Shown here one piece after another: positions 1-59,657 of a stretch of DNA of 64,000 nucleotides. A program made the position numbers and the translations under genes. The first letter of the stretch is position 1, and each line of letters starts with the position of its first letter. Location: NCBI GenBank assembly GCA_964036045.1, contig OZ038387.1, positions 57,134,427 through 57,198,426 on the forward strand, given 5' to 3'. A model generated the notes under the pieces. The model saw only the letters and a program-made list of their open reading frames with translations, was not told where the DNA came from and did no database searches. Origin of the DNA: Eutreptiella sp. 'Long Island Sound 2002' (taxonomy: Eukaryota; Euglenozoa; Euglenophyceae; Eutreptiales; Eutreptiaceae).

Positions 1-3000
1 GGAATTGTGCTGGATGGCAGGGCCCTTGACCCAGGGCTGATGCACCCCCGCCGACCCGATGACCCACCGGCCCTCGACGCTGAACTTGTCTCCCACGCCC
101 CAGCCCGCGACCAACGCGCCCACGGAGGGCAGGTGCCGGCTGTACCACACGTCCTCCGGGGTCCCGTCCCATTTGGGGCCTTTACTGAGGCATTCCAACA
201 GTTTGGACTTGCTGCGGATGGACAGGCCCCCGTTGCCCCCGGTCATGGGCAGCCAGCCCGCCCCTGTGAACGGGGGATAGTGGCTCCAGACCGCCCCGAC
301 CCAGTCGTACTGCAGGAAGTCGTCGACAAAGTATCGGGAATTGGAGCATAGCATCGAATCGGACTGGAATACCAGCAGCTTCTCCCCCTGGGCAGCAGCA
401 AACAACAAGAAGCGACAGGCAGCGCATGACAGCCCCAGCTGCAGCCTCAGGCACATCCTCAGCCCCAGTCCCAGCTTCAACGTCAACCCCATCCTCAGCG
501 TCAGGTCAGCATCAGCTTGAGCCCCAGCTACCCTCAGCCTCACCCCTGGCCTCAGCCCCAACCTCCCACAGCTACAGCCCAGTCACCAGCAACCAGCCTG
601 CACCAAACGGCGGGTGCTCACCAGCACCCCGCATGCACCGGACAACCAGCAACACCACCCAGGCATGGGGAGACGGAGGTGAATGAAACACAAAGCCGAT
701 GGACCACCAAATACTTCCGGCATTACGCGACTTATTGTTTGAGTTTTGGGGAGGAAACTGTCCGCACTGTGGGCGGCTGATGCTGAGCGGTATATCAGGT
801 GGTTTGGGAGGGGGCGCGGCGGGGGGGGGGGGGGGGCGCGAACACCGGAGCCCTCGGGCCAGACCGCGGAGGGCGTAAGGGAGCGGATTTTGTGTTAAAC
901 AAACCCAACCCGGAAGTGATGGATGTGTTGCGCAACGCTTGTAGGGGACGATTGATGCGGTTTTACGCAGTTTTGTGGGTGAATGCCGAATCCTGTGTTG
1001 GTGGCCTATCGTGTTGGGGCCTGCTTCACGACAAAGAACACAAAACCAAACCTGCCGATGTCAGTTATGCGTACAAACAGACAACCCCTTTTTGAAGAAC
1101 GACACCCAAGTCCTGCATGAGGCGGCACGTTTGAGCTGCATGCCAACCGACCCCCCTGTCCCGGTGCACATGATGTGTGCCGCATGTCGGCATGTGCATT
1201 GCTCCCACGCCACACACAGCGCCTAAGCGCCCATGCTGCTCCATCCCACAGTGCCTCGGCCCCAGCCCCCCATCCCACGCATCCCTATGAGGCTTCAGCC
1301 TAGGGCGCACGAATCTATTTGGTGAGCTCAAGCGACATGGTTCTCCAAGGCAAAGGGTGAAGACCTGACACGCACTCCAGAACTCTTTCATGGTCCACAG
1401 CTGATTGATTGCTCCCACTTTGGCCCAGTTGATGGCGAACTTCAGGGGGCTCAGCACCAGCCGCTTCGCTGCGATGTACACCTGCAGCTTCGAGGCCTTT
1501 GCGCTGTTCAGCGTCTGCTCCGACCCGAATAATTGGATCACCCAATCATCCCCAAGAAGCGTAAAGAACATCTGCACCGTTGCCACAAAATTCGGGGGGA
1601 ATCGCGACTCGATCAGGATTCCCGTCTTCTGCCCGACATTTCGCGCATGCTGCAACCGGCACTGCTCCGCGTGCTCGTGGTCTGTCATGGGCGGCGGCGG
1701 GCGCATCGTCACGCCCGGCAGCTCCGGCGGCGCGTCGCGGGCGCAGGTGTACTCCTGGTTCCAGACCGGGAGGGTCGCGTTCGGCGCTAGGGCGATGCCA
1801 TTCCCGCGCCCGGAAAGCGTGACAAGGAACGCCGCGAGTTTGCGGGGCCCCCTCGGCGCCGGCGCCGCTGCGCCCTCGTACTGTACTGTGGCCCAGTTGA
1901 TGCCTGACGACGCGCGGTACCCGCGCAGCTGCGCCGCCAGGCTCGCCCCCACCGGCTGCGGGAGGGTCCCGGTCTCGTACGCGGCGACGAACAGCGGAGC
2001 CTCGCTGCCGCCGGAGGACAGCAGCTGCAGGAGGTTCCCGGTGCCCAGGAGGCCCCCGTCCGTCGGGCTTGGCAAGTGGTACACGCACAAGAAGGGTCCG
2101 TATAGGCTCGCCATCTCGGCCACGAACTGCGCGTCGGACAACACGCCATTAGCACGGAGCACCTTCAGAGGGGAGTAGCAGCGCAAAAATGAACATGGAG
2201 CGCCACTGGGCGGTATCGGGGGAGGCATAGTACCACCAGGAGCAGTTGTGGAGGGGTATGGTATGGTACAGTACGGTACGGTATGGCATGGCATGGCATG
2301 GCATGGCATGGCATGGCATGGCATGGTGTGGTGTGGTGTGGTGTGGTGGTCCACCGCCTCCTGGTGGCCCTCCTGGGTATCCAGGTGCAGGTGGATGCGC
2401 CACTGCACGCCGAGCTGTGGGGCGATCACCGACAGAGAGTGTGGTGTGGTGTGGTGTGGTGTGGTGTGGTGTGGTGTGGTATGGTGTGGTGTGGTGTGGT
2501 GTGGTGTGGTGTGGTGTGGTGTGGTGTGGTGTGGTGTGGTGTGGTGTGGTGTCAAGTCAGGCCGGCCGACGACGCCGCCACCCACCCCGGGCGCCCCCCG
2601 GGGTCAGCGGTGCAGCCTGTGAGGGGCAGACGCACCACTGCCTCACCAAGTGTGCCTCGAGTGCGCGCGTCGACCGTCTAAGGTGAGACCCACCAGTTCC
2701 CAGAAAGCCGGGGCCTGTCGGCGGGACTGGTGTTTCTGAGCGTCCGCTCGCCTGCCCGTGGTGGACCTTGCTTGGTCCGGGCGCCTCTCTTCTTCGCGCC
2801 ATGCATGGTACTCTCGGCCCCCCCTCACCTGGGGCCCATTCCATCAAAGGTGAGACCCACCAGTTCCCAGAAAGCCGGGGCCTGTCGGCGGGACTGGTGT
2901 TTCTGAGCGTCCGCTCGCCTGCCCGTGGTGGACCTTGCTTGGTCCGGGCGCCTCTCTTCTTCGCGCCATGCATGGTGCTCTCGGCCCCCCCTCACCTGGG

Positions 3001-6000
3001 GCCCATTCCATCGGAGTGCGTGTGTGTGTAACGGCTAGACGTTCTGCCGATGGACGCCCACTGGGCGGGCCAGCGGACGATGGCTCTAGCGCTCCATGAC
3101 ATGACATGACATGGTGTGGTGTGGTGTGGTGTGGTGTGGTGTGGTGTGGTGTGGTGTGGTGTGGTGTGGTGTGGTGTGGTGTGGTATGGTGTGGTGTGGT
3201 ATGGTATGGTGTGGTGTGGTGTGGTGTGGTGTGGTGTGGTGTGGTATGGTGTGGTGTGGTGTGGTGTGGTGTGGTGTGGTGTGGTGTGGTGTGGTGTGGT
3301 GTGGTGTGGTGTGGTGTGGTGTGGTGTGGTGTGGTGTGGTGTGGTGTGGTGTGGTGTGGTGTGGTATGGTGTGGTATGGTGTGGTGTGGTGTGGTGTGGT
3401 GTGGTGTGGTGTGGTGTGGTGTGGTGTGGTGTGGTGTGGTGTGGTATGGTGTGGTGTGGTGTGGTGTGGTGTGGTGTGGTGTGGTGTGGTGTGGTGTGGT
3501 GTGGTGTGGTGTGGTGTGGTGTGGTGTGGTGTGGTGTGGTATGGTGTGGTGTGGTGTGGTGTGGTGTGGTGTGGTGTGGTGTGGTGTGGTGTGGTGTGGT
3601 GTGGTGTGGTGTGGTGTGGTGTGGTGTGGTGTGGTGTGGTGTGGTGTGGTGTGGTGTGGTGTGGTGTGGTGTGGTGTGGTGTGGTGTGGTGTGGTATGGT
3701 GTGGTGTGGTGTGGTGTGGTATGGCATGCACCCTGCACTATTGAAGGAGATTGCACCATCGTCTTCTGGAGGGCACTGTTTGCTGCCCCTAGGGTGGTGG
3801 TCCATTTTCCTTGACCATTATGGCCTGATTGGTATAGGCACTTGTTCCAGTTTGTGGAGAGAATCCTTTGTGCACTGTGGATGGCTCACGTTGAGCAAGG
3901 CAGCATGGGGCCTGGTCTCCTTTCTGTGGCTCTGGTGCAGACCCATGTGCAGATGTGTTGGTGGGGTGAGTAAGCCATAAAAGCGGCCCGTTGCACATGC
4001 GTCGAGCGTCCCGAACCGGGTCGTCGGGAGGGGTCCGAAGGGGGGTGGGGGGGCGGACGTAGGGTTTGCCTGGAAGGGACGTGGGGCGAAGGGGCGGGAC
4101 GCAGACTACGCGCACCTTTGCAGACGCCTCCTCGCCGTACCACACCGAGCGGTATTGCGACCACGAATCCACCGCCACCACCGACAGCCCCTGCGCCTCG
4201 AACCCGCGCACGACGAGGGTGCCGAGCCGCGACTGCGCTCCGGTGACCAGGACCCGCGGCTCCCACGGGACCGAGGGCTTGGGCGCCGAGCCCTTGGACT
4301 CGCACATGCAGAGCTTCGGCACGTTCAGGATCGGGTCGCCGCCGAAGGCCCCGTTGGTGCAGGCGATCGAGCCGGTCACCTCGCGGGAGAACAGGTACTC
4401 GCCCTGGCCGTACCGCACAGTCCCGTCGCAGGCGCACGGCTGCCCCTCGTGGGCGCACACGCGGCCGCCCTGCGGGGCCTTGGGGTGCGCGTCCCACTCC
4501 CCGGGCTTGAGGTGCGGGTGCGGCTCCGTGCGGAACGCGCGCGCCATGGGCTTCGGGTCGTAGATGCCCACCATCTTGTACTCCGGGCACCAGCCCTCGA
4601 CGCGCGCCTTCACCGACTGCGGCTGCACGTGGTAGGGGCGGTACACGGCCAGGGGCTGCGCCAGCGCGACCTCCGCACGGAACGCGAACTCGTGGGCGGT
4701 GGCGGGGGGCGGCAGTTGGGCGTTGAGGGCGCGCAGGCCCCGCAGGAAGTACGCCTCCTCGGGCCCGGCGAGGACGGGGAGGGTCTGCAAGACCTGCAGC
4801 ATCTTGGCGCGCGTGCGGAGGGAGAAGCCCCCGTAATACTCCGGGGGGGCAGTGCTCGGTACGACGGGCCCGATCATGTCCCACTTCAAGAAATCGTTCA
4901 CCTGCAACGGCAGTCAGGGCGGTGCGGGGCTGAACGGCGTTGAAGAGCAATGGCGGGGCATCGTGCGAGGCTCGGTGCGGGGGGGGGGGGGATGTGCCAC
5001 AAGGGCTGGTTGGGTGTGGGAGGCGGTGGGGGTCCGCTGAGGCGGCGGTTGCCGTGGCACTGCAGGCCTGGGCGGGGCATCGGCCAAAAAGTTGTTCGGG
5101 GCCTGTCGAGACAGATGCCATTCTAACGGGTCGACGGCCCTGTCCATTGATTCCCGGAAGCCGCCCAGTTTTGGGGGTGCTCCGCCCGCAACTGAGGGCG
5201 CCCCATGGCATAATGGGGGATTCCTGTCCCCTTCCCCTTTTCGGTGTTTCGCAACCCCTTTTGCATTTGACCCTGTCGGCCACACGTTGGCCATCGGCTG
5301 CCATGGAGGTCTACCGGTGATAGTTGGGGGCCCGCAAAAAACTCTGCTCACCAGCACCTGCTCTGCATCGGTGCGTACTGCCGCGGAAGCAACCCCCGCC
5401 CCCGCCCCCCCCCCCCCCCCCCGCGGCCACGGGGGGAGGCGGGCGCCGGGCCCGGTCCGTGATCGCGGACCCCCCATTCCCCGAGGGCTGTACGCATACG
5501 CGTATACACGCGTATTTGTACAGTACGCTTGTACGCGTATACACAGCAGGACCCGTGCACAAGACGTGTCACGGATGATACGGACGATACGGGACGAGGG
5601 TTGACGCCTGTGTTCCTGTGGCCCCTCTGGGGGCTCGCTCCATCGCACGGCTTTGCAGGGATGCTGAACGGTGGGTAGACCGCACACGGTCCTGTCTGGA
5701 TCACCAGCCCGCAGGGGCCCTGTGCTTGTGCCTCTGCTTGGGTCGGCAGGTGCGCCCACAATCCACCAAGTCGTTGGCGTCACCGGCAGAGGCCGGCAGG
5801 CAGGGACGGGCACTGCAGCACAGCAACGGGCACGGACACAGGGACAGGCAAGGGCATGGGCAACACGTACAGGCACTGACACCTGCATGGCACTGGCATG
5901 GGCGGGGGCATTGGGACGAGGACCAGTGCAGGCACGTCACAGGTCCTGCAAGGGCACAGGCACAGGCAAAGGCAAAGGCACAGGCGAGGGAACAGGGATA

Positions 6001-9000
6001 ACCACTGGCACTGGCGGGCACTGGGCATGGTCATTCCTATTCTCAACCGAAAATTCTCAGATTGTCGCCGACTCTCTCCCTGATGAGCGTGGTCTCTACG
6101 CGAGGACGACACGATGAAAGTATCACATTTTTGAAGCATTTGTATGTGTAGTCCTTTTTTTTCCTCTTCGAGACCTTTCCAGTTGGTGGAGACCAACGGT
6201 CGAAAAATTCTTGTTGTCGAGTAAGGCATAGGCCTGGGCAGTGGCACAGGCACAATACCGATCGCTGGGAGTTGGAGCACATCACGCTGTCCAATTGGAA
6301 CAGCAAAACTTTGTCGCCGGCGCACTGTTCCCAAAACTCCACCGTCTTCAGCAAATGGTCCCGCAAATTGGGCATGTCCCGCAGCAGAGACTGAGGGATA
6401 GTGCTCAGGAGGATGCGGCCTGTGTCCAGCCATTTGCGGAGCTTTGAGATGCGGATCAGCAGCTGCACGTCTCGCGGCACGAAGATCTGAATCTGCGAAG
6501 GGGCACATGTGGGAGGCGGCATCAGAGGCAAGCGGGGGGCTGTCCAGGGCCACTGGTATGGACGCAATTCTTGTTTCAGGCCGAGTTTGGACATGTGTCG
6601 AGCAACGGGCGCAATGGGACGGGCAGACTTCCACTTCATTTGGGGGGTTTGAAAGGGGGCGGGGGGGGAGTGGACCTGAAATCTTGCAGGACATTTCTTG
6701 GGCCAGTCCAGTGGTGCATTCACCCCAAAACCACCCGCTGCCATGCGGTGTTGCACAATGTCACAAACGGCTGCCGTCTGGAGAGTCCGTGAAGCGGGAA
6801 ATAGGCTCTGATATTTTTGAGATTTCCGTATAACAACGTCCGGATCAATGATATTAGAATAGTTTTCAATGGCTCCTCCACGGAACCGCTCTAGGGGCTG
6901 TGGCTGGAATTTCGGCGGACTGCCATAGCGATCGGCAAGCTGCAAGATTTGATCTCAAGATAAACCAGTGAACAACAGCCTCATACTCAGGCTTCTCACC
7001 AGCAGTGACAAGGTTTGGTGCATCTATGAAGAACAGCTCCAGTGTTGGCATTGCACTCATGCATTACATTACAACAATACCGCAATTGTTCTGGCATCCG
7101 CCAGCATTCAAGTATTCGGTACCATGAATGGGGGGGGGGGGGGGGCATTAGAGCAGGAGCTTGAGGGAAGGGGACAGACCTTCCAGGCTGGAGGTAAATT
7201 GTTCAGGAAATTGATCACCACTGGCACAAAGAGGGTGTGCAGCTGTGTCTCCACCAGCACTGCCACTTTGCTCTGCACGGCTCCGTCCGTAGGGCTCAGG
7301 CGACACGGCGGCATGGCCGGGGGGTCACTGCCGCGCGGCAGATCGCGGAACGGCAGCACCCGGTCCCCGGTGCCGGAATGTCCCTGCACCGCGTCAACGA
7401 CGGGCCGGCCCAGCGCTATGTCATGGAGCGCGTCGGCGTCGGCGGTCAGCACGAGCCACTGCAGCGCGTGGCTCTTCCCCCACGCCTGCAGCTGCGCGCG
7501 CAGAGCCCCCAGCGCCACGGCGGCCGTTTGGGCAACGCTCAGCTCGGCCCCGGGCGCCGGGCCCGGCAGCGCGACGTCCGTGACGACCGCAAAGCGCGCG
7601 GCTTTGGACACGACCGCGTGATACGGCACCGGGGCCCCGAGAAGCCCCGGCGCCGCGGGGCCGCCGCGCACCACGTGATACACGTGCCGGAACGGCCCGC
7701 GGTCCGCGAACAGCCGCGCAACGAAATCCGGATCCGCCACGTCCCCCGGGACCACCGACACATGCGGCGACTCCAGCGGCACCCGCACCTCCGACCACGC
7801 GGGAAACAAGTCCACGGCGACGACGGACTGCGCCGGGCCCGCGAGCGCCTGCACAATCGCGGCCGCGAGCGGCGTACGAGCCCCGGTCACCAGGACGCGG
7901 ACCACGCCCGGCACGACAGCGCTGGGCTTCGGGGCCGCCGGCAGTGTGCACAGGGGCAGCGGAGGGGGTGCGGCGCGCAGCTGGTCGGGCAAGGGCGGCA
8001 GCGGAGGCGAAGGCGAAGGCGCAGGCGAAGGCGAGGGCGCGGGCGCGGGCGCGGGGGCGGGCACGGCAGCAACAGAGGCAGGGGAGGGGGTGGCCGGGGG
8101 GCGGCCGGGAGGCGCGTGCGACGTGTTGACGTAGAGGTACGCGAGGCGCGGCGCGATCAGCCGGTATTCGGGGCAGTCGTCATCGACGCTGCGGAGGAGG
8201 GCCTCTGCGGCCGCCCCCGGCGCGAGCGCCCCCGCGGCTCCGAACGTCCCGGTCGCGCCCGGTGCGGTCACCACGAACTGGCCCACGACATCCGGCCCCG
8301 CTACGCGTGCCCCGAGGGACGGCAGGTGCTGCGCGAAGAACGCGGCGGCACGGGCCGTGCCGGGCGGGTAGAAGTTCAGCGCCTTAATCATGTGGGCCTT
8401 GGAAACCAGCGCCAGGGCCCCGGGGCCGGCCACCCGGTGAGCGGCGTTGGCCGGGGCTGGAGCTGCAATGTAGTCCCACTTCAAAAAGTCTTGGATTGTG
8501 AAGTTGGACTGGGAGCACAGGACCGAGTCCGCCGCGAATACCAGCAGCGTCTCGCCCTGGCACGCCTGCCAGAAACTGACATTCATGAACACGTGGTCGA
8601 CGTCCGCCGGGTTGCAGTCAAAAGCCGTGAGGAGTACTTTGCCCGCGGCGATGAGGTCGCGTAGGCGCGACGCGCGAAGCCGGTCCCGGACGGCGGCGGA
8701 GCAGCACACGATCTGCAGCCCCCACTCTTGAGGCAGGTTCGCGATGAAACTCTGGACCACCGGGAAGAGGGCCGGGGGCGCGGCGGGGGCCACCATGACG
8801 GCGGTGTGCGTACTGTTGTGGTAGGGCATGTGCGGTCGCACCGGCTCGCCCTCGCCACCGACCTGGGGGAGCGCACGACACACAGTGCGGCACTGCAGCG
8901 GGGCGCAAAAGCATCCATCACAATCCAGACTGCCAAACATAGGCTGTCCTTCCGATGCACTTACCCTCAGCCCAACAGACCTTGCTGCCCCTCTCACGCC

Positions 9001-10185
9001 CTCTCGATGCATCGAAGGCGTCACACGAAATGCCAGTGAGCGTTGCAAACGGGCGGTTTGTGCGCATGCTTTGATCGGCTGCCGTTAGTAAGTGGTGAAG
9101 GCAACTGAAGGAAACAGCTGTTGTCGGCAAGTATCGCAGGTAAGTGAGTGGAGTGAACGCCTGCATTGAGCATCTGGATTCACAGTCTCGGCACATCCGC
9201 CATTCTACCCTCAGCTTTGATGATAGGGGCAGGGCTTGCTTGAGCAGGAGGGGGAGGGGGGGGGGGTTCAGGGGGGAGGGGACCCCCCCCTACTGGAACA
9301 TACCCAATACCCAGCAAATAGAAGCAGTGTTGGACAATGACCCAGTCAGTGCATGAAAATGTCATGTTATCGACAGGAAAGAAAGCAAGATCATTTTTGC
9401 AGGGGAATTCAGGGTCCACTCACCCAACCAACACACAACAAACATAAGAAAATGGGGCATTGCACATCCCCAACCAAATCACGGTGATCTCAATTGTCAA
9501 TCGGAAGTAGATTCCCCTGGATTGGAATCCACACCATCACCCCCATCTGAGGTCGAAGTGGAGGTAGAAATTTGATGAGGAATCCGAACCCATTCCTGAA
9601 TTAGAGGCGTTCCACAAAGTGAAATTGCTGTCGGCGATGCATTGATATGCATTGTGCACTTCCAACGGTGAACCGGTCGCTGGGTTTGCAACTTCTTTAC
9701 GCTTCTTACCAGCTTTTGCCAACGGGCCTCAAGCGTTTCCTGTGTTGTTGGCGTCGACGCAGCTGCCTGGATGGTCTAGGGTTTCCTGGATGTGGTTGCG
9801 GTCCTGTGTGCAACACAATGAACATAGAGGACACATGGAACAAGAAACAAACACTCTTTGATACCCGCCCAAGGCGCGGAGAACAGTTTTGTCCAGTCGG
9901 TGAAAAAAATTCCCAAACCCAGGTCTACAGCTGATTTTGAGCGGAGCAGGGAGGGGCGGAGGGGGTGCAGGGGGGAGGCCCCCTCCCCCCCCCCTGCCGG
10001 AATGAAGATTATCGCAATGCCCTGTGACAGGGGGCACCCAATCCACCCAATCCACCCAATCCAGGGGGTGCGTCGGGTTCAGGGGGGTCAGTTGCAAGGG
10101 GAACCTGGAATGAGTGCATCATCATCCGCAGCAGCATCATGATGGCCAGGAAGAAGATGAACACCAGCCATCTCCGCACCGGCAT
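1..10185 (-). CDS. Multi-module type II membrane protein: alternating DUF5672 glycosyltransferase-like and Rossmann (SDR-like) modules, partial at the window edge
   Basis: Not a known named gene. Proposed exons, high to low: 10185-10105 (start ATG at 10185, signal anchor MPVRRWLVFIFFLAIMMLL), 9766-9710 (stem), possibly 9078-8965, then 8892-7180, 6492-6259, 4901-4116, 2162-1365, 387 to <1. All joins from 8892 on are phase 0 with GT-AG sites and restore family continuity, e.g. FWSACQ joined to GEKLLVFQSDS. Order of parts: GT module A (about 8820-8270; LLVFAADSVLCS), Pro/Ala-rich linker, Rossmann A (about 7905-7330; VTGARTPLA), GT module B (7265-4600; LLFQLDSVMCSNS), Cys-rich insert (4455-4295; CACDGTVRYG ... 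KLCMC), Rossmann B (4265-1900; VTGAQSRLG), GT module C (1640 to 60; QSDSMLCSNS, GGNGGLSIR, EDVWYSRHL). DUF5672 proteins are thought to be GT-A-like glycosyltransferases. The anchor implies a Golgi or ER lumenal enzyme. N-terminal exons between 9710 and 8892 are uncertain, and the C-terminus lies outside the window. Confidence 0.8.
388..1364 (-). other. Intron of the multi-module gene (inside module C)
   Basis: Donor TGTCAG|gtctt ends the exon at 1365. Acceptor gctgcccag precedes GGGGAG at 387. The intron splits the GT core between FWSACQ and GEKLLVF. It contains a G16 run at 821-836 (C-run in the sense strand). I see no gene in it. Confidence 0.8.
2440..2551 (+). repeat. (GTGGT)n pentanucleotide satellite, short block
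   Basis: About 110 bases of GTGGT units with one GTATG variant, preceded at 2281-2345 by GCATG units grading into GTGTG. It lies in the intron 2163-4115 of the minus-strand multi-module gene, so the sense strand reads ACCAC. Confidence 0.97.
2681..3014 (+). repeat. Recent 167-bp tandem duplication
   Basis: Two adjacent copies, 2681-2847 and 2848-3014, both beginning AGGTGAGACCCACCAG and ending near CCCATTCCATC. I see only about one internal mismatch (GGTACTC against GGTGCTC) plus the last bases. It sits in the same intron as the flanking pentanucleotide blocks. Near identity implies a young duplication. Confidence 0.95.
3106..3725 (+). repeat. (GTGGT)n pentanucleotide satellite, long block
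   Basis: About 610 bases (some 120 units) of GTGGT with scattered GTATG variants. A 5-base period without stops makes long false ORFs in all frames on both strands (VVWCG and HTTPHH repeats). It is intronic in the minus-strand gene. Confidence 0.98.
4902..6258 (-). other. Intron of the multi-module gene with GGCACA/GGCAAA-type degenerate repeats
   Basis: Donor CGATCG|gtattg ends the exon at 6259. Acceptor ccgttgcag precedes GTGAACGATTTC at 4901. Contents: alternating pyrimidine-purine DNA at 5488-5545 (cgcatacgcgtatacacgcg), a C-run near 5407-5420, and a purine-rich degenerate hexanucleotide region at about 5780-6030 (aggcacaggcaaaggcaaag). I see no coding sequence. Confidence 0.7.
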
Positions 10186-14849: not shown

Positions 14850-17800
14850 TCAAGGCCTCCTGTTACCGCTTTCAATTCGTATGCCGGGCACGTACTTCAG
14901 CCGCATTTTGCCCACTTGGCTCGCTTCGAGTGCGGGCGGCATGGACAGCGAAAACAGCCACGGAATGTACTTGTTGGCAACAGCGACGAGGTCCGCAGGG
15001 CTGCAGCCAACCCGCTTGCACATGGTCGAGTAGTATCCCAGAAACGCGATGTACACCTGGTTAATAGCAAAAGAAAATGTCAAGCACAGAAATATAGAGT
15101 GCTGTGCGTGGAGGTTTGAGTGGTATGTGGTGTGTGCGTGGGCAGTATGGTGTGCACTTTCGTGCTGCATTTGCACAGTAATTGTGTGTGTGGCTTGCAT
15201 CATTGCTTAGAAGGTGGTACAGGGGTGCATCAGGCTGGCAGGAGGGATTCAATCACATTGTCCCTGATCACAGGGCAAACACTGTCCGAACCGAACTGTG
15301 CTTCATGAGTACTTGGAGAGGGGCTTTACAGCAACTCCAAAAAAAAAATTCAACCATCGGCTTTTCGGCTTGCAGGTTCACGTACTGGTCACAACAATCA
15401 AAACAAGGCCGTACGTGGGGGTGTTATTGCACGGTGCGTGCACGATGCAGCACCTTCTTGACGTTTCCAGAGCTTCTACCCAGTTGACAGGCCTCTCAAA
15501 ACCACTATGGCAGGTGTTCCTAGAGGCTTGTGGATGGTTCCTCGACGCTCTTGGACCGTTCCTGTTACTTCTTGGTGGCTTCCAGTTGGTTGCATCTACT
15601 TCCTCGTGACTTGCTGCGGGTATTTGGGTGGTTGCGGGTAATTCTTGGTGACTTCTGGTTCCTTGTAGATGGTGGACGCACAAAATCTCTGGGCCGTGGT
15701 GAAGGGCCCAACACAATGGCTCGAACTCAATCATCCATACTCATGCAATGGTGGAAAACATACGGACCAGGGGTGACCCAGGACACGGACGTAGTAAATC
15801 CAATCTGAGGGAAAACATTCATGACAATTATGTACACAACAGCATGCAGAAATAGGTGGTAGAAGGTAAGATGCAGTTGCAGGCACCCCAGCACACAACA
15901 CTGTGCCTTTGACCCTACAATGTGGCAAAAAGCAGCACCCATGTAAGTTGACATGTAAAAACTTTGCTCGCACTGTGATCACAAAGAGCGTGCAACACCC
16001 TCTATTTTCATGAACCAAAAAAACCCGAAAGTGCAGAAACATGCAAAACACATGCCATCCCCTCCTGGGCAGAGAGAGAACCACAGGGCAAAATTACTGC
16101 AGAAAAAATTTTCTAACTATTATCACTATTCCAAGACTGTCTTGGTGACGTGCCATTTGTCTTTGTGTCTTTCACTTTCTTTTGTTTTTGGCTACCTCAG
16201 TGTCCTTCACGGCCAAATGCTCATGAAAATCTTGTGGATCATCATGCAATCCATGTCGATTTGTTTCTGCACAGAGCCACCCACAGTCCCTAAACGAAAG
16301 TTGCGGAAACTGGGGCTTGCGCACAAGGGGATAGAAAGCGTTTCCGAGGGGCGTACCTGGACCGCTGTTACCCCCTTGTCCCCAGCCAGCGCCTTGCGGC
16401 ACAGCTGCACTGCTCCGGCCTCCGCCGCAGCGTTGGGCGGGGGCACGTCCTTGACCCCCAGCGATCGCAGCGACGCAGCCCCCGCTGCCTCGAAATCGCT
16501 CAGGAGGAGGATTGCGTGGCCTGCATCTGCAGTGCCGCGGGCCGTGCGGCCCAAGCGGTGGATATATTGGTCCTGCGATGAGGGCATCCCCACTTGCACG
16601 ACGCACGTGACATCAGGGTAGTCCATCCCCCGCGCAGACACGTCCGATGAGAACAGCACAAGCCCCGACCCCGTGCGAAAGTGCTCACTGACTCGGTTGC
16701 GGTGCGACTGCGTTTTGCGCGAGTGGATCTCGAGAACCGGGAGGCCGGCAGCGTTGAAGGCCTCGGCCATGCACTGCGTCTGGCGCGCCGTCGTAAAGAA
16801 TACCATGACCTTGTGCGACGGCCGCTGGGTCTCACAGCGCACCAGCGCCAGCAGCACCGCCAACTGGTCAAGTACCGGGGTCACCATGACCTGCGGCAGA
16901 TGAGAAGAAATGGGTCACGGGATCACGGGGCACGTCTTGTTCACGCTCCCTCTCCCGCCATCAACGCGTCACTCTCACTTTCTGCGTCGGACAGAGAAGG
17001 GGCCAAGACAGATGGAGGGAATTAGGACTGAAGGGGGAACTGAGGGAGCAAAGGAGTGAGCGAGGGCCTCGTTTCTCCCAATATACACAACGAATCGTTC
17101 AGATAGCCCCTTTTCCTTTTCGGCCCATTCGAAGGGGGCGGGGGGGGGGGGGGGCTGGCACAAGGCCTTGGTGGTTGGCTCTGTTAGCCTGTGGCGGCGC
17201 CTATTGGCCTCTCGCCCTTGAACCTTCTGCCATGGCGGTGGGGGGGGGGGGGGGGGTTGGCACAAGGCCTTGGTGGTTGGCTCTGTTAGCGGTGGGGGGG
17301 GGGGGGAAGGAAAGCCAATGTGTACGTCCTGTCCCGCACAGGTACCACCGAATTTTCAGATCAGGCCCTCCCTCCCACCCTCCCTCCCACCCTCCCTTCC
17401 TCCTTGCCGCCCTCCTGCATCCCATGACATCCCAGCCAACAACACGCCATCCAAAGCTGCCACCCAACATGCCACCTCTCTCCCGCAGCCCCGGAACGAG
17501 AAAAGGGTATGAAAGGGCGTTGGGGGAAACCCTAATTAAGGTGAGCTAACCATGAGAGGGGGGGTGGGGGGCGAAGATGAGGATGAAAGGACAGGTTTGG
17601 GGGGCATGCTTTCGGTCAGTGGCCCCGGTTGGCGTGGGTCCGCTGGCTGACAGACAAACGCTGCAGCCTCTGGCAGACTCCCCTTTTTGACAGATTGGTC
17701 GATACACTGAAACGCCAAAGACGATGTTGACCAGGGAAATCTGGACGTTCGTCATGCACAACCGCGTTGCCTGATGCACAATGCTCATGATCGCTACAAA

Positions 17801-18911
17801 CAAACACCGGAGACCCGACCCTGTGCAGCGACTTGGGGTCCTTATCAAATCTTCGTGTGCCTGGAGGACAATGCAACGACAGCACAGCAGAATGACCCAA
17901 CAACACAGTGGCATGCTTCCGTGTGTGAGGGTTCACCCAACCTCAGGCAACATGGCGTGTTCAGTCTGCTCCAAAAAGTGACAGGGCATCCCACACATCC
18001 ACTCCAATGCCCCTGCCCCCAACCCTGTCCCTAACCGAGAGGTCCCAATCCTGAACCTGCTGCCCCACTTGCTGGTGCACATTGGTGTCACTCTCCTGCA
18101 CCATCTTGTGCACGACAGTCTGCCCGCTCCGCGTCACACGCGCTGCAATGTCCAGAACCGACTTGGGCACCGTCGCCGAGAACAGCAGCGTCTGCCGCTT
18201 TCGGGGGGGCGGCAGGGCCCGGAGGATGCCCTCCACTGCGGGCCAGAAGCCCTCGTCCAGCAGCCGGTCCATCTCGTCCAGCACCAGCACCCGCACACAC
18301 CCCGCGGCCCCGTCGTGTGCTAAGAGCCCCTCTGACAAATGCTCCTGCAGCCGTCCAGGCGTGGCCACCAGGACATCAGGCTTGCTCGCCAGTGTCGCAG
18401 CGTCCTTCCCCTTCGCCCGCCCCCCCACAATCAGCGCCGCAGTGAGGCTGTGGAATGCCGCCACTCTTGCAAATTCCGTCTGGATCTGCATCGCAAGCTC
18501 CCGCGTGGGCGTCAGCACAATCGCGTTGGGGCCAGGGCCAGGGCCGGGGCCGTGCCACTCCAGCGCCTCGATGATGGGGATTAGGAAGGCAAGGGTCTTG
18601 CCGGTGCCCGTCTTGGCCTGCCCTATGACATCGCTGCCGGCCATGGCCGTGGGGACGCATGCCGCCTGCACCTCCGTGGCATACTTCAGCTGCATCTGAG
18701 CCAGCCCCTTCTGCGTGGCGTTGGACAGGGGCATGGAGGCGAACGCCGTATCTGTGAGGCACCGGTGACTGCTGGGGCCGTCGGCTTTGTGCCGCTTGGT
18801 CTGCGGGGGGCCGTCTGCAGGGGCCTGTGCCGCGCGCTTGCAGGCTGCATGGTGTGCCATGTGGGACTGCGACGTAAACATGGTAGCCCTCATAGCTACA
18901 CAGCTCATCAT
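14850..18911 (-). CDS. DEAD-box ATP-dependent RNA helicase, RH25/RH26/MSS116-like
   Basis: ATP-driven RNA unwinding or RNP remodelling; plant relatives of this type are mitochondrial or nucleolar. Three exons: 18911-18057, 16890-16357, 15056-14850, all phase 0, giving 531 residues. Helicase motifs: Q region near 55-85, motif I AKTGTGKT (99-106), PTRELA (135-140), TPGRL, motif II DEMD (212-215, in place of DEAD), SAT (246-248). Exon 2 carries SDVSARGMDYPDV and HRLGRTARG. Exon 3 has a C-terminal region (YIAFLGYY ... GKMRLKYVPGIR) that resembles the plant RH25/26/31 tail LGYY ... KMGLKNVPGL, which fixes the subfamily. Junctions: GGGCAGCAG|gttcag to gccgcag|GTCATG, and GTCCAG|gtacgc to ttaaccag|GTGTAC. 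The start could be either of two adjacent ATGs or a downstream one; the first 55 residues are low complexity. DEMD is a conservative change and probably active. Confidence 0.93.
15057..16356 (-). other. Helicase intron 2
   Basis: Runs between donor gtacgcccctcgg and acceptor gctattaaccag. It contains an A/T-rich middle and no recognisable gene. Short open frames on the plus strand are shadows. Confidence 0.85.
16891..18056 (-). other. Helicase intron 1, rich in G-runs
   Basis: Holds three long plus-strand G-runs (about 17141-17153, 17239-17256, 17293-17306), i.e. C-runs in the sense strand. A near-duplicate phrase GGCACAAGGCCTTGGTGGTT occurs at about 17157 and 17259, so this part arose by local duplication. 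Confidence 0.8.
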
Positions 18912-21628
18912 GCTGGCAGGCCTCCCTATTGGGGCAGGATGCTTTGACCTGGTTGTGGTGGGCCCTCTTTGACACAGGGAAGAAACTAATCAACATTGGA
19001 AGCCCAGGTGGTGTCATTTGGTAGCAGCAGGGAATTCGAACGGGACTGTTGAAGGAAGGTGCTGGTGAAAAATTCCAGATTGGTTCATCTGCTTTCTTTT
19101 CCTGTGAGGGCTACTTGTGGCATATGCTTGGCAATACAGCATGTGGGCTAGCTGCACAGGCACACTGCTTGCAAAGAGCCCCAGACCCTGTGGAGGTGAG
19201 GAGGAGGTGGTTGAACTATGATGAACGGATAGGTGTGTGTGTTCTGTATCTGTGGGATGGGCAGGGGGGAGGGCGTCAAAACCCCCAAAAATCTGTCCAC
19301 GAGCGGGGTTTGAGGAGTCACATGGTGAGGGGACCTGTCCCCCCCATTTTTTGCGGGTGGGAAGTCCACATTTGACAATTTTGGAGCCTGTCCTAGCGTC
19401 CTCTTCGCAGAACTTTTGATTCTGTGTGTTTTTTGCCATGTTTTCACCAACGTCTGGCCAGGCTGCATAGGGTGGGTCTCAACCTTGCGACTCCTATTCC
19501 TTCAACATATTGCCACTTGGAGGTCAAATCAGGCAGGGTGGATTTGTTGCATTTGATGTGTAGAATCCATGCGCAAAGTGACTCCCTTCAACTCAACAAT
19601 ATGTTGGCTCAGAGCAATTACTGGGCTACATGGGGGGTGTCTGGGGTGGTCATCGCTCAATGAGCCAACATATCGCTGAGTTGAGGGGAGCCACTTTGCA
19701 CCTCACATTAAACCCACCCTAATGACTTGACCTCCAACTGACAATATGTTCCCACCCTATGCAACCTGGCTGGCAGCAAGCCTAAATGTTGAAGAGTTCA
19801 AAAGTTCGCGTTCGGGACTCAGAAATGTGGCCTCATAACCCCACCATGACCCACACCTCTCCGAATAGCCCTTTTCTTGGAGATTTCATAAGGTGTCCCC
19901 CCCCCCATGTGACAACAATTTTGCGCAATTCCGCGGAAAATTTGAAAACCCTAGATTAGCCCCCCCCCCCCCCCAAAAAACCCAGGTACTAATGCTATCA
20001 TCGGTTGTACTAGCGCCATGTCTTATGTATGACCTGCCTGTTGGTTGAGGTCATTTGGTGGGGGGGGGGGGGGGGATCCTAGAGGGTGATGGTCAGAAGG
20101 GGAGAAATGGAAGATACCCTTGTCTTTGGTGTGAAGAAAGGGGAAACTTGTATCTGATACAATTGTCCTCTTTCAAAGCACCGAACACAAGTGTTATGTC
20201 AAACAAAATTTTCTCGCTGCTAAGCATAAGACACAAAGGGGGTCTTTGCAATGTGCGCTACTTTGGAACATACTTTTCAAAAAAAAGCCTCCAAATTGCC
20301 CCCCTTCAAATGCCCACAAAACAAGCTCCCATTGAAGCCCACATTAAAAGACTAAGTCCAAGTGTCCCGGTAGCTCCCAAACCCAAGGCAGGAGCATGAA
20401 GATGCTCATGTTTGCACCCAATGGCAGAACCCACAATATGGCTTGTGTTGCAACACGCAACAACATGAAAAGCATCCATTGTACAGATTTTCAGCCCATC
20501 GGACAAACATTCGAAGGCACCTTCCATGATGAAATGAAAAATACTGTGAGAAATGGGTATCAGAAGACAAAAGAAATGGGGAGGAATGTGGGAGAGTTAC
20601 ATCAATACGCGTGCCCATTGTGTTTCATGTGCCCCCCCATCGGGGGATAGATATAATGAAAAGATTTGCATGCAATTGGCGATAGTGAAATGTGCAAAAC
20701 AACCAATGTACAACATCTTTGAGTGGTGGTTGGCGAACACATTAGGACTTTGCCCACAATTGAGTCAACCAATGGGTGCTTATACACTCTACAAGAACAC
20801 CGTGCTAGGGCCTCCCGGCTTCTGAGAATTGGGCACAGGGGTCCTCATCACTAATTGCTTGGAATGCTGGACCCCCGCCCCATTTGTCTTAGCGCCATAC
20901 ACTGTGGGTTAAATTTTCCCTGCTTGCATTGGTGAGGACTGGGCCAAGTACGAGTTGGCTGAAAAATGGCGATTCCTAGGTGACCTCGGACAACCCCTGG
21001 GGACCCTGGGCTGTTGTTGGGTTCAGATAAAAGAAAAAAGTGGACTGGGTCCGGGGTCTGGATCGACGCACAGTGGCGACTACCCACTCTAGCGCAAACA
21101 ACCACAAAACGGCGCTTTTGAGTGCCAATAAGCCCCACTAAGAGGGTCCAGTTGGTGCTACATAGCTCACCGCGGGTTTGAATGCACCCCCGTTGTCACC
21201 AAATGATCATTCAACAACAGCCCAAGGGTCCCTGGGGGTTGTCGGAGGTCGCGCACAAATCGCCATTTTTTAGCCAACCCATGTAGGCCACTTTTAAACG
21301 ATCATTTTGTGTCTTTTACATGGCATTGACAAGCCCATGGCACGGCTAGGCTGTTCAGTGGCACCTCAAACTTTTGGGACCTCGCGCCACAGAGGTTGTT
21401 AGATCAAAACCATGTGTGCCTGTTTTTCGGCGTATATGCGTGCACTACACCAAGCGGTTGGATTGTTGGTGTAATGCTTTGTAAAATCCTTATTTCGTCC
21501 AATAAACACATGCCCCAATGAATTTTTGGTCGGGAGCCCCATAGCCCCGTCCCCCACTTGAAACCCACTTTTTGAGGGGGGGATCAGTTTTTTGAGGGGG
21601 GGGAGTAGGGTGGGGGTTAAACAATGTC
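18912..21628. other. Intergenic DNA upstream of the helicase; fold-back element, no gene recognised
   Basis: The first 100 bases should hold the helicase promoter; no core element is evident. Apart from the fold-back element at 19407-19810 the DNA is unique-looking, with C- and G-runs at 19961-19974 and 20059-20075. Frames here are short and lack family motifs. Confidence 0.6.
19407..19810. mobile_element. About 400-bp fold-back element (MITE-like)
   Basis: The left arm (about 19407-19620) and right arm (about 19655-19810) are imperfect inverted copies. Shared phrases in order are GAACTTTTGA, GGCTGCATAGGGTGGG (right arm reads GGTTGCATAGGGTGGG), ACATATTG, TTGGAGGTCAA, GCAAAGTG and CTCAAC ... 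ATATGTTGGCTCA. Arms diverge by roughly 15-20 percent. No coding capacity, and no clear target duplication was found. Confidence 0.75.
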
Positions 21629-31400: not shown

Positions 31401-33384
31401 GTATCAATTGTACGAGCAAAGAAATTTTGCATGCCCATCCTCTAACAATGTGGAGCCAAAAAATGCACGGCATTGGCTGCTTTTAGGCAAAAAGCCGGGG
31501 GGGGGGGGGGGGGATGATTCTCACTTCTGAAAAGGGGGGGGGGGCAGCGGCTGGGGGGCCATGTTTCTTTGTTCTGCAAGGGGGGGCCAGCGACAAGGGG
31601 GGGCCAGCGACATGGCGGGGGGGTGGTAGTGCCTCTGCTGGAATGGCTTCTTCCTCCCATGTAGAGCATATGTCTCGTCCTGCTTTGCAAGGAAGCATCC
31701 TAGTCGCACCAACGCTGTATTGCCTCATGTGTGCTAAGCACCACCACTAAGCTGCGGCATGGGCAGGACCTAAAGCCTAAAGCCGTGGTGTTGGCCCCAA
31801 CCCTGAGGCTTGTATCGAATGTGGGGTAGTGGCAGCCCCGCACTATGGAATTGAGGGTCCGTCGCGTCTCAACTACTACCGTACGTCCCCCGCCGTCCAG
31901 TGCATGCTTCTTGCCACGTGCATGTAATTTGGGCAGTGGGAGTCAGTCTCGTGGGGGATGCGTTGTGCGGGCAGTGTTCGCAGTCCACTGCAGCCAGCCT
32001 GTTGCAGCTGCTGCGCCTGGTGTCTCCAGTCTCCAGTCCACCTTCAAAAGTGCATAGTAGTAGCACCACAGATGCCCTTGATACAACTGCCTAATTTGCT
32101 GCAGTGTTGGTGAGGCCCCCCAACGCGCGGGCGTCGGTTTTGCAGGTTGAGGATGGGGTGGGACGACATGCAACTTTCCCAGCCAGAACAATGCTGTACT
32201 GCAAATAGGCAGTGCAAGGTGCGTCATGCCTGCTCTTCGATGGAGCCGCCCCCATCGACGTCGATCTGGGAGAAGATGTTCTGGGCCTCGCCGAACGTGG
32301 TCCCCATCCCCAGCTCCTTCATGGCCGCCATGAACTCGTAGATGTCCAGAAACCCGTTGCCGTCTCCGTCGAACTTGCGGAACGCCTGCCTGGCCACTTC
32401 CCCAGCGTCGGCACCACCGCCCTGTGGAGGCATGGTCTCGGGCACATCGTAATACTCCATCATGCGGCTCTGTGGACGGAACTCGCTCTCGCGCTGGTAG
32501 CCCTGCTGGGGCTGGGCCGAGGGCTGGTATGGCAGCTGGTAAGAGTTCTCGTACGACTGCCGGGCCTGACGGGTGATGTACTGCGGGGTGTCGTAGAAGG
32601 ACTTCTTCGTGCTTGCAGTCGCGCTGACCCCAGCAGCAGCAGCCTGCCGCCGCACCTGACTGGGGCTCACGAACGAGCTCTCGTACGTAGCGGCGGTGCT
32701 CTTGCCGTACGGGGAGAGCTGCGGCCGGGCGGGCTGGGAGGGTGGGTAATCGTGGGAAGCGGCTGAAAGGTCCCTCGTCACTGAGGGCGAGTAGCCCCCC
32801 CTCGTAACTGAGGAGGAGTAGCCCCCCCTTGCAACTGAGGAGGAGTAGCCTCCGTCGTTCGACGGAGCTGCGATCCGTTGGCCAGTGCTTTGGTCGAAAT
32901 ATTCCACGGAAATCACATCGCCTTCGCGATGGGTGGTCCCGTAGGTGTGAGAGGGGGCGGTCTCGCTGTAGGTGCGAGTGGGGGCGGTCTCGGTGTAGGT
33001 GGTCCCGTGGGTGCGAGTGGGCTCGGTGTACGTCGCACCTATGTACGTTGGCCTAGAATACGACGTTTGGTAAGGGGATGCGTATTCGGTGGAGGTGTGG
33101 TACTGGCTCGGATAAGAAGATGTGTGGTATGTCGGCGCCTTGTAAGTACTAGGAGCTGAGTAGGTGGTGGCTGGGGTCGAGTAAGTGGGTGGCGCCGCGT
33201 AGGTGTGCGTAGGTGGTGCTGCGTAGGTGCGCGTGCCTGGCGCGGGGTAGGAGGGAGTGCCGTGGTAGACTGGGGCCGGGGCTGGGGTGTGTGGTCTAGA
33301 TTGATTGAGCTTATAAACGGGTAGAGGTTGTTGTTGGCCAGCGGGCCTCGCAGGTGGGGCGGGGGCTGGTTGCTTGTTTCCCAT
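28484..33384 (-). CDS. Four-EF-hand calcium-binding protein with Tyr/Pro/Thr-rich N-terminus
   Basis: Probably a calcium sensor or calcium-regulated structural protein; the partner is unknown. Two exons: 33384-32230 (385 codons) and 28762-28484 (92 codons plus stop), 477 residues. The start ATG at 33384 is in good context (CACCATGGGAAAC). Residues 1 to about 300 are low complexity, rich in T, Y, S, P, and include GGYSSSV/GGYSPSV repeats. Then four canonical loops: DGDGNGFLDIYE, DVDGGGSIEEQE, DEDGNGLMELKE, DNDGGGTIEEHE. The last Glu of loop 2 is the first codon of exon 2, which strongly supports the join. EF1-2 and EF3-4 are duplicated pairs (AFRKFDGDGNG / MFRKYDEDGNG). The intron (32229-28763) starts GAGCAG|gcatga and ends accatcttcag, so it would be GC-AG. 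Gly2 could permit N-myristoylation, but residue 6 is Pro, which makes it weak. Confidence 0.88.
28763..32229 (-). other. 3.5-kb intron of the EF-hand gene, apparent GC-AG
   Basis: No GT occurs near the end of exon 1 that would keep loop 2 intact; the first intron bases read GC. The interior holds C/G runs (28827-28838, 28897-28908, 28999-29008, 31179-31191, 31498-31514), AT-rich DNA at 29815-30580 and the tRNA-like/duplicated segment at 30055-30405. No internal exon is needed, since the two EF-hand halves fit together exactly. Confidence 0.75.
30055..30405 (+). repeat. tRNA-like promoter boxes followed by a duplicated segment (possible SINE remnant)
   Basis: A-box-like AAGCTCAGTGATCC at about 30060 and a perfect B box GGTTCAAATCC at about 30098-30108 are spaced slightly too closely for a functional tRNA: the anticodon arm is about 9 bases short. 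CCAGCGG ... CCGCTGG can pair around the B box. Downstream, an approximately 54-base sequence (AACCCAGAGTCAAAAAGGAG and following) occurs twice, at about 30151-30204 and 30350-30403. A tRNA-derived SINE relic fits, but no poly-A tail or target duplication was found. Confidence 0.4.
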
Positions 33385-36300
33385 GGTGTTTGGTGGACTC
33401 GCTGTGCAACAACAACACGGAGCAGAAAAGAAAGGGTGCGCAATTACTGCAAAAGTGATGGTGCAGCTTTTCCTAGCTTTTCCTACAAATGAGACACAAG
33501 CTGCGAACAAGTGAACCCATCCGTTGTGACATACGTTGGCTTGTGACCCGTGGTTGCATATTGATGCGAGTGGCACCTTAGTGATAACAACACGAGGGTT
33601 TGCACCTTGCCGGAGAACGTGAGGTGAGAATAATGGTAAACCGGGTGACCCTTTGTCCTTGTTCTCTATCAACAACTTGGTCAATCTTACCTTTGCAACT
33701 CAATGTAACAATTCAACATGTGATCTAGGGTTCTATACTATAAGGCTGAGCTAGACACTATCGTTAACGCATGAATCAATCAAGAAGAAAGCAACCCGAG
33801 AAATCCACATCTCGAGCAACAAAGTGCAAGCACGGGGAGAACACAAACCCGAAGGATCTACGTGTACAAACAAGAGCATTGTCTTTCCTCCAAATGCGGT
33901 GCTTTCCGTTTTGATTGAGGTGGACTCGGTACCATTCAGACACGATTTTTCTCGGGTTCCAACTTTGCCATTCTCATTTCATTTGAGGAGTGACGCTAAT
34001 CATTCTTGTTATCTTATCACTGCACGCCTACGTCTCACACCAACGTGAAACTATCACGTGTAGCAGCGAGGAGGACAATGCTTTGCGCACTTGGACCCAA
34101 GAAAGTACTGCCCAAAATCGCAATACTACGTAATTGAGCCAAGCATGCAATCACCATGAGTAGCGTTGCGTTGTCAAATGATCATGAGACCGCAACAAAC
34201 CTGTGCATGTGTGCATTTACGGGTCATTGGGGTGTCATGGGCTCAACTTGTTTATTTGCTGCTCCAAGTATGCGCTGTGCTGTCAAGTGCTATGAACCCC
34301 CGTGCAGCTCGCGCGGTGTGCGCACCAATCCATCGCCGAGGAAATGGTTGCTTGCGGCTTCAAAAGATTCTCAAGCTTTGTGCACGGGCCAAAGCTCAAC
34401 GAAGCGCGCCAAACAAAGGATGTCCAAATCATACTTAGTGAACGGCATTTTAAATGCTCGCAAACACCCGTGTTCTCAAGTTCGCGAACTTATTCGTGGG
34501 TCCTCGTGGCTTTGCTTCTAGCAACAAGATGCCAGTGTTCTTCAAGGTTTGAGATGCTTGTGCATTTTTAATCTTGCGTCAACAACCTTTAGTGAGACAA
34601 CCAAAAGTAGCAACTAAGCTACTCCTTGCCGTTTGCTACTTTCTCACGTGATTCCTCAAAGTTGAATCAAGGGATGCTAGCTTCCCCAAAGGATGTTTTC
34701 GGATCCTCGTGCTTGCTCGGCTACGTGTCCTCCAACCTTGCGGGAGTTAACCTGAGGGTGCACGAAAAATTGCACAATTCGTTCATCGTAGCCTTGGCGT
34801 AATATGTTGGCGCATCACATGCATGGTGTTATAGCGCGCCCCCGTTGTAGTGGGGCATCATGTGTTGGTGTGTAGCGGCGGCATGGACGCCATAAGTTTC
34901 GGAGGATGATGCGGAAATACGACGTCGGCGCGATCAACGGGTTTCTATCTATCTTGTGGTGTGTAAACTCGAGCGGTAATCGGAGTTTGAGCACCATGTG
35001 GGATACCAGGAGGACCTCAACGGAACCCTTTACTTTGGGCTTCCTATCTCCATCCACCGCAAGCACGTGTAGCCGATGCCCCTCAAAAGCAAAAGAGCTC
35101 GTCCGTGTTGCATGCCCTTGTAGACCTTTTTCCTCAAGAGTCGCAAGCGGTCGTGGGCGGTGGGCACCCCCATATTTTCCTACCTACACCTCAATAGTCC
35201 GACGACATGCAAGGAAGACGAGATGATTTTTTCTCGACTTGAAATGTCAAATCCATCCAAAACACCAAACTTCATGCACGACCCGCCGAGTTTCTCGGTG
35301 CTTTTTGGTGATAGGTGCCAAAGTAGCTAGAGCTAGAGACGAGGGATGTGGTGCCAAGATAATAGAAGGGGCACACAAAGCAACCGTTTCTGGCAACACA
35401 TGTTTGATGCACTTCGACATGACTTCGTTGCGCATAGCGTCCTTCCGCTACTAACCATTCCTCGAAACACAAAGTTCACCGAATAAGCCATGGTCCAACG
35501 GGTTGATGTAACTCCAAGCTCTTTGGTGTGGGGGGCATGTAACTGTGCAAAGACAGTCAGTTCCACTACTTTGCCAAAAACAACAAGAGCGGGAACAATG
35601 GTTGCTCCCACCACCGTATGGAAGGCTTAAAACTTTTCGGGGATTGTAAGGCCCCTCACATTGCAAATGATGCTCACTGGCCTTATTGTTGGTTGCTTCC
35701 CGATTGCGTTCCCCGTCTGAGGCAACAGACTCATTACTGGGGCTTGCAAGCACGTAGGGCTTGTGCAGATTGCGGGAGGTGGGATGTTCCACACTTGGTG
35801 CCGAAGTTTCGGAAAAAATTGTCCAAGAAGGATCGTGTCCGCTCCCTCCCGATTAAAAGTACCCTGAAATAGTGATTACGGACAACTCTTTAACTTCTGA
35901 ATGCAGCTGATTTTCCGTTTGGAATCCATGCTACCTATGTCACCCCAAAACCTATGGAACAAAATGGTTCACCAATGAGACACTCAACAAGTTGAACGAA
36001 CCGATGCGCCCTTTGAATGCTCGCTGATTTCAGTTTTTCCTTGGGGGTGCTCGTTATTTGCACCGCAAGCGCCGCAAGTTGCACCGCAAGTTTTCCGTAG
36101 AACTTGCATATTCTACGGATGAGGACCTTTTCTGAATTGAGCAACAGGCCCAGGAGTCCACCGCGTGAAAAATATCCTGCCAATACAAAATTTCCAGAAA
36201 TTACTGGTTGGCACAATGAAAATTGTATGCAGGCAGTCAACCTGCCCAAGAATTTGCCTTACGGTCCTCCACAGTAAACAAATTCCGCAAGAGGACGCGC

Positions 36301-41474: not shown

Positions 41475-41619
41475 ACACACCACACCACACCACACCACAC
41501 CACACCACACCACACCACACCACACCACACCACACCACACCACACCACACCACACCACACCACACCACACCACACCACACCACACCACACCACACCACAC
41601 CACACCACACCACACCACA
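41475..41619 (+). repeat. (ACCAC)n pentanucleotide satellite
   Basis: About 145 bases of uninterrupted ACCAC units. This is the reverse complement of the GTGGT satellite at 2.4 and 3.1 kb. Because neighbouring genes here are on the plus strand, the sense-strand motif (ACCAC) is the same at both loci. Confidence 0.98.
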
Positions 41620-42904: not shown

Positions 42905-48733
<5,829 letters not shown>

Positions 48734-58700: not shown

Positions 58701-59604
58701 GGGGCCGGAGATATTGGGGCACATCCCCCCTCACTGCATGCCTCACCTTAGAAATTCAGAACCATTCATTGCGAACGATGTGGCACAGGCAGCTTTCACG
58801 ACTGAACGGTGCCTCAATGCCCCTACTTTCAACTTGGGACGACTCACAGGAAGAGTGCATTGCAGTTAGGCTTGTGCTTAGTGTGGAGGACACCCTACCC
58901 CCTGGGGGGGGGGTGGGGCACAGGCCAAAAAAAACGTTTGTGTACCTAAGATCGGCCTCCAATGTAAACTGATGTGGGAGGGTCCGTTGGCTCCGGTTGG
59001 CCAGGGCCCCAAACGCCCCCCCCCCCCCCCTCCGGGGGGTCACTCAGCACAAGTCTGCAGTGTCGCTGACGCTCGGCGGTCCAGTTGCGCTTTGCAGCAC
59101 CCCTTCGATATCAGGAACATCAGACGAAACCTGTCCAACTGTGGCGGTCGCTCATCTTCCCGCTTGCTTTCCCACCGCAGAGCCATTATGTTCCTTCTGG
59201 AGGATGACTACGCTTGCCATCCGGACATGTTCGCCGAGGTGATTGATTTGTTCTACACACACGACGTGTGTGCGGCAGTGCCCTATGATTACATGGACAG
59301 GTCTCCGTCAGGGCTGCCCGATGGTTGGGGATGGGGCATCAGCATGCCAAGCAGAACACAAGCAACCACGGCAGCCAGACGTGCAACGCTCAAGAAAGCA
59401 TTGAGCAAGCAAACGGCCAGAGACTCTGCCAAAAGAGTGTGCAGCTCAAGCAGCGCTGAAATACAGCAGATGGAACGACACAACCAGACAGACTTCCTGG
59501 ATACTGACCTGGTTGATAAGGCTGTTACAGTGCCTCCTTCTGTGCCGGCACCCTACAGCTGGAGTGGGAAACGGGAGAAGGATGTGTGTGTGGTGTGTGT
59601 GTGT

Positions 59605-59657
<53 letters not shown>

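Follow-up and report, generated by a model that had tools for sequence, protein, structure and literature searches.

What might a single membrane-anchored polypeptide do with three copies of a DUF5672 domain that alternate with two Rossmann-type domains resembling short-chain dehydrogenases/reductases (SDRs)? This question is raised by a gene at one end of a 64,000-nucleotide stretch of DNA from Eutreptiella sp. 'Long Island Sound 2002' (contig OZ038387.1, positions 57,134,427 to 57,198,426), the whole of which is here termed the window. The gene lies on the minus strand in 1-10185, and its product is ordered as an anchor, DUF5672-A, SDR-like-A, DUF5672-B, a six-cysteine insert, SDR-like-B and DUF5672-C, at which point the window ends. 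The original prediction, made from the letters alone, had proposed just this series of modules on the minus strand, and both the gene model and Pfam bear it out. The modules occur in this order in one chain, the chain is conserved in a second species, and four of its five DUF5672 and SDR-like modules have lost the signatures of their families. The explanation that we consider probable is that a single active DUF5672 transferase at the C-terminus is carried on a stem of eroded pseudo-modules, its activity being predicted from conserved residues.

The gene was modelled from long open reading frames (ORFs) and splice sites, and comprises 7 exons (10185-10105, 9739-9710, 8862-7180, 6492-6259, 4901-4110, 2162-1365 and 387-1), every one in phase 0, which together provide 1335 codons with no stops. 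The features of the gene and its product are:

10105..10185, minus strand: exon 1, with the start codon and the sole N-terminal hydrophobic anchor, residues 1-27 (gene model and hydropathy; type II topology predicted).
9710..9739, minus strand: tentative exon 2, ten codons of stem (splice consensus only; no similarity to the relative EG_transcript_488 described below).
8131..8808, minus strand: DUF5672-A, residues 56-281, eroded (Pfam DUF5672, E = 1.6e-8 on the exon ORF).
7906..8130, minus strand: linker rich in Pro, Ala and Ser (translation).
7330..7905, minus strand: SDR-like-A, residues 357-548, with a recognisable cofactor-binding half and no YxxxK (Pfam Epimerase on 360-434; PDB 3tpc).
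4557..7269, minus strand: DUF5672-B, residues 569-791, eroded, spread over exons 8862-7180, 6492-6259 and 4901-4110 (Pfam).
4296..4499, minus strand: Cys-rich insert, residues 811-878 (six Cys, with spacing identical in EG_transcript_488).
1698..4259, minus strand: SDR-like-B, residues 891-1095, spread over exons 4901-4110 and 2162-1365 (adh_short below cut-off; weak NCBIfam matches).
1..1628, minus strand: DUF5672-C, residues 1119-1335, in exons 2162-1365 and 387-1, running off the window (Pfam, E = 3.1e-20 on the last exon ORF).

The window appears to be eukaryotic, with GT-AG introns splitting its genes and long simple repeats. The introns of this gene reach about 2 kb, one of them holds repeat arrays, and they separate the exons in a manner that could raise the suspicion that adjacent genes had been joined by a wrong splice model. 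This is hardly credible, since single exons bridge different modules: 8862-7180 alone encodes DUF5672-A, SDR-A and the start of DUF5672-B; 4901-4110 the end of DUF5672-B, the Cys insert and the start of SDR-B; and 2162-1365 the end of SDR-B and the start of DUF5672-C. As each of these three long exons bridges at least two modules, the covalent pairing of the modules is independent of the splice model.

A second line of evidence against such an artefact came from searching the whole model against about 5.8 billion proteins, which returned a sole match at E<=0.01, EG_transcript_488 (P0001), a protein of 1405 residues with 41% identity over 96% coverage (E = 3.1e-258); scoring was limited to the 8000 candidates sharing most words, and other relatives may have been missed. 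It is known as a predicted protein named by its transcript identifier only. The style of the identifier is that of the Euglena gracilis transcriptome (PMC6366073), and this is the basis of the species assignment. In the full alignment every module of the model is in register with EG_transcript_488, in the same order and behind the same anchor. A single transcript, as had been predicted, is therefore supported by a transcriptome-derived protein carrying every module as well as by the bridging exons, and together these contradict separate genes.

The same alignment bears on the individual exon joins: those at residues 598, 676 and 1206 are gap-free and clearly similar, that at residue 940 is gap-free with little similarity, and those at residues 27 and 37, along with the ten codons of exon 2, are unsupported by it. 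When EG_transcript_488 was compared with the 64 kb window by tblastn, collinear minus-strand matches extended from 8886 to 4, in addition to cross-module ones; the reversed protein, used as a control, gave none at E<=1. SDR-A had no tblastn match of its own at E<=1e-3 and was aligned nonetheless in the full-length comparison. The C-terminus of the chain lies off the window and probably not far past base 1, given that EG_transcript_488 ends about 50 residues beyond the last aligned residue. Two shorter relatives discussed below (P0003 and P0005) terminate within a few residues of a Pro/Cys motif that is also found near the end of EG_transcript_488.

Which of these modules might be active? The full model matches DUF5672 (PF18922) in three stretches (E = 2.7e-49; 167.4 bits against a gathering cut-off of 24.4). 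On single ORFs, modules A and C score 34.8 and 72.9 bits respectively, both above the cut-off, while the intron-split module B scores 18.3 and 23.8 bits as two pieces, each below it. To compare the copies, we aligned 19 reference DUF5672 proteins (5 from the protein searches, 13 ORFs from IMG/VR and 1 from a Synechococcus metagenome-assembled genome (MAG), the last two groups representing 14 of 82 fetched loci) and defined a signature of 17 invariant or near-invariant positions, excluding the start Met. Each reference protein has 15 to 17 of these positions, the two misses of P0005 falling in an intron-like stretch. Module C alone has the full signature, with 17 of 17 in the window and in E. 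gracilis alike. Module A retains 5 in the window and 9 in E. gracilis, and module B 9 and 7. The patterns used to fetch the loci fix 8 of the 17 positions; the result does not depend on them, because the contrast persists on the other nine (9 and 9 for C, 3 and 4 for A, 4 and 3 for B, in the window and E. gracilis respectively). Identity between the two proteins is also highest in DUF5672-C (64.5%), followed by DUF5672-B (54.5%), the Cys insert (43.3%), DUF5672-A (39.2%), SDR-A (37.2%) and SDR-B (34.6%).

These figures bear on the idea that the chain holds two or three active transferases, with DUF5672-A, DUF5672-B or both working through changed residues on a different donor. The second rank of DUF5672-B in conservation and its retention of the FQxD aspartate in both species speak for such activity, but its NGG and ED motifs are broken in both, as are its G and H positions at the C-terminal end, and we regard the idea as improbable.

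The Rossmann segments had been predicted to be SDR-like, and profile comparisons agree. Pfam Epimerase matches the full model just above its cut-off (E = 2.5e-4; 21.0 bits against 20.9) and EG_transcript_488 at 21.6 bits, and adh_short matches SDR-B in the full model below its cut-off (E = 0.0062). A profile of the four SDR-like copies (two modules, two species) gave 75 matches in the Protein Data Bank at E<=1, the best at 4.7e-4; among the 60 listed, all but two (1o89 and 1tt7) are SDRs judging by name, and one reaches position 150 of the profile, the others ending by 92. Against solved chains, the SDR-A segment of the window alone matched four SDRs (best 3tpc, E = 0.0037), and SDR-B alone had weak SDR matches (best 0.27). 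NCBIfam likewise gave weak SDR matches, far under cut-off, on both segments of EG_transcript_488. A non-SDR Rossmann fold was considered and is disfavoured, nearly all the listed profile matches being SDRs by name and the match of XdhC_C to EG_transcript_488 (0.13) lying under its cut-off. The similarity to the SDR superfamily, which includes the UDP-sugar epimerases, lies in the first half of both modules. Neither form of the cofactor loop (TGxxGxxG or TGxxx[AG]xG) nor the YxxxK catalytic pair is present in any of the four copies. All four share three unchanged residues, namely the Asp that follows beta-2 (VAVD), a second Asp further on and a His, and the cofactor half is thus recognisable and the catalytic half is not. 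An SDR ancestry is well supported and SDR catalysis unsupported, because profile matches were found but the signature motifs are missing.

The original prediction had left two mechanisms open, namely a lumenal assembly line or a scaffold of dead enzymes around one active transferase. In the former, the SDRs would modify a sugar nucleotide and the DUF5672 modules would transfer sugars in turn, as the alternating order of the modules might suggest. The plant proteins GAE, UXE and UXS, which we take to be SDRs, offer a parallel. They are sugar-nucleotide epimerases and decarboxylases located in the Golgi, and they are catalytically active, with no transferase fusion described in the accessible part of the source (PMC8636097). 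An assembly line in the euglenid chain is nevertheless very improbable, as no copy has the SDR catalytic pair; TGxxGxxG is equally absent, and DUF5672-A and DUF5672-B retain no more than 9 of the 17 signature positions. The same losses of motif and signature leave the scaffold as the favoured of the two mechanisms.

The cellular setting of such a scaffold is suggested by the N-terminus. A single 19-residue window of mean hydropathy above 2.0 is present, at residues 7-25 in the model and EG_transcript_488 alike, so that both proteins have, as Golgi type II glycosyltransferases do, a single transmembrane anchor behind a short N-terminal tail. The two proteins have 5 and 6 N-glycosylation sequons, respectively, and the anchor, the sequons and the kept cysteine spacing would fit a lumenal protein. 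The Cys insert has no Pfam family above cut-off (Metallothio_6 at 0.031 on the window copy, nothing on that of EG_transcript_488) and no relative among solved structures or among viral sequences; similar Cys motifs presumably occur in algal proteins. EXT, chondroitin synthase and LARGE likewise each combine several transferase-type domains in one type II Golgi protein; they belong to other families and are not known to have SDR modules.

We accordingly envisage a membrane protein with type II topology, some 1400 residues long and probably resident in the Golgi of the euglenid, in which the C-terminal DUF5672 domain would be the sole catalytically competent unit, a putative glycosyltransferase. 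DUF5672-A, DUF5672-B and both SDR-like domains would go back to a transferase-SDR unit that was duplicated in tandem long ago, and would have lost their active-site signatures. They could now form a non-catalytic extended stem that sets the active domain at a distance from the membrane; they may also bind the acceptor glycan, a sugar nucleotide or a partner.

Two variants of this picture differ in the role left to the eroded modules. They could be drifting relics that supply length and stem and have no other present role, and SDR-A, SDR-B and DUF5672-A are indeed the least conserved parts, at 35-39% identity. Yet two species whose proteins are 41% identical have both kept the modules in frame, undiminished in length and unchanged in order, the six cysteines keep identical spacing, and none of the four SDR copies has changed the VAVD Asp or the His; we therefore hold pure relics to be unlikely. 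Another, rather unlikely, possibility is that the SDR modules sense how much sugar nucleotide or NAD(H) the Golgi lumen contains and gate the single active DUF5672 transferase. If so, the two inactive transferases, the two inactive SDRs and the disulfide insert would have been kept as sensing and binding parts, and such a sensor-gated chain of pseudoenzymes would represent a novel principle for constructing and regulating a glycosyltransferase.

Several points weigh against one active transferase on a stem of eroded modules. The FQxD aspartate of DUF5672-B mentioned above is one; another is that DUF5672-A of E. gracilis keeps the PED and SLR motifs, and motif erosion would in any case be no proof of inactivity. 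For the SDR-like modules alone, Epimerase falls under its cut-off (16.6 bits for A and 11.1 for B), E. gracilis SDR-A alone matched no SDR among solved chains, and the SDR fold is predicted from sequence. For the DUF5672 domain itself, the profile found no credible solved relative (the best was a designed protein, E = 0.001), leaving no credible candidate for a known fold, and no established activity was found. Eight members tried against PHROG and five single-domain members tried against NCBIfam models gave no matches.

SDR-A and SDR-B are homologous to each other (hhalign probability 97.4 over 186 columns). In a tree of the DUF5672 modules, in which 4 of the 13 inner branches are at starred support and the long-branched fungal P0007 falls near module C, the B modules of the two species pair at 100/100 and the A modules at 91/92, while module C of the window groups with P0005 (98/96) and then with E. 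gracilis C (80/78). The simplest history would be that a DUF5672-SDR unit was duplicated in tandem before the species split, with a third DUF5672 domain at the end.

How unusual is this pairing among DUF5672 proteins at large? Among eukaryotes, relatives were found in the euglenid transcriptome and in a fungus; the others came from many viral contigs, from eight phage records and from two Synechococcus MAGs. Two further protein searches extended the set: one with the last DUF5672 domain of EG_transcript_488 against proteins of similar length, in which EG_transcript_488 and P0002 were found among 1748 candidates, and one against shorter proteins, which gave 14 matches at E<=0.001, including P0003 and P0005, close to module C. 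P0002 has two DUF5672 copies, and Pfam found no SDR in it at E 1. Another protein, P0004, looked SDR-like by eye at its N-terminus and was dropped as a second DUF5672-SDR fusion, having no Pfam support and an hhalign probability of 0.2.

Wider sampling came from the 82 loci, which comprise the best 80 of at least 92 viral loci and the two Synechococcus MAGs; ten ORFs were scanned with Pfam, and the 73 shorter ones, except L081, were judged for SDR by length and motif. DUF5672 proteins had been described as single-domain, and by length this would hold for the 73 of 82 ORFs that are of 304 residues or fewer. It fails for seven of the nine longer ones, which on viral contigs carry GT2 (L033, L072), GT9 (L038, L057, L068) or Methyltransf_24 (L045, L054), the remaining two having no further Pfam family at E 0.01, and for P0002. 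The fusions to GT2 and GT9 are the best evidence here for DUF5672 acting on glycans, a role with which they would fit. No DUF5672-SDR fusion was seen in the 82 loci, the nine longer ORFs being without SDR by Pfam, unlike the euglenid chain. The protein search for such chains suggested with the original prediction has hence produced one full-length match, EG_transcript_488, and none among these other loci.

The combination of one intact and two eroded DUF5672 copies in one chain offers a natural internal comparison. The contrast between them points to likely catalytic residues, and the role of the retained pseudo-domains is testable in cultured E. gracilis.

Further members of the family include P0008-P0016 (571-600 residues), in which DUF5672 at the N-terminus is followed by a second half of about 300 residues; the three that were scanned, P0008, P0010 and P0016, have no second Pfam match at E 1. 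In the Synechococcus phages RN05-S, S-B05, S-B43, RB11-B and S-H68 the DUF5672 relative is annotated as a hypothetical protein. A literature search covering few subscription journals found DUF5672 named once, in the context of Streptococcus suis secreted effectors, and did not find PF18922.

Elsewhere in the window, searches for RNA genes found no Rfam family and no tRNA. The longest listed open frame, of 696 codons (37504-39594, plus strand), and an ORF with an acidic LLEDDY stretch (58882-59850, plus strand) have no Pfam matches at E 0.1; the LLEDDY stretch is, we assume, reminiscent of transferases. A split gene on the minus strand at 16210-18989 encodes a DEAD-box RNA helicase (DEAD 4.7e-44, Helicase_C 6.2e-23), one on the plus strand at 42770-47679 a queuine tRNA-ribosyltransferase (TGT 8e-18 and 9.7e-39), and 32227-33699 on the minus strand a protein rich in Tyr, Pro and Thr with C-terminal EF-hands. 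Pentamer arrays of the ACCAC type occur at 3112-3724 (613 bp), 2439-2552 (114 bp) and 41476-41620. The first two sit inside the large intron that separates exon 5 of the DUF5672 gene from exon 6, and the same intron holds a tandem pair of 167-bp copies with a 99% match at 2680-3012.

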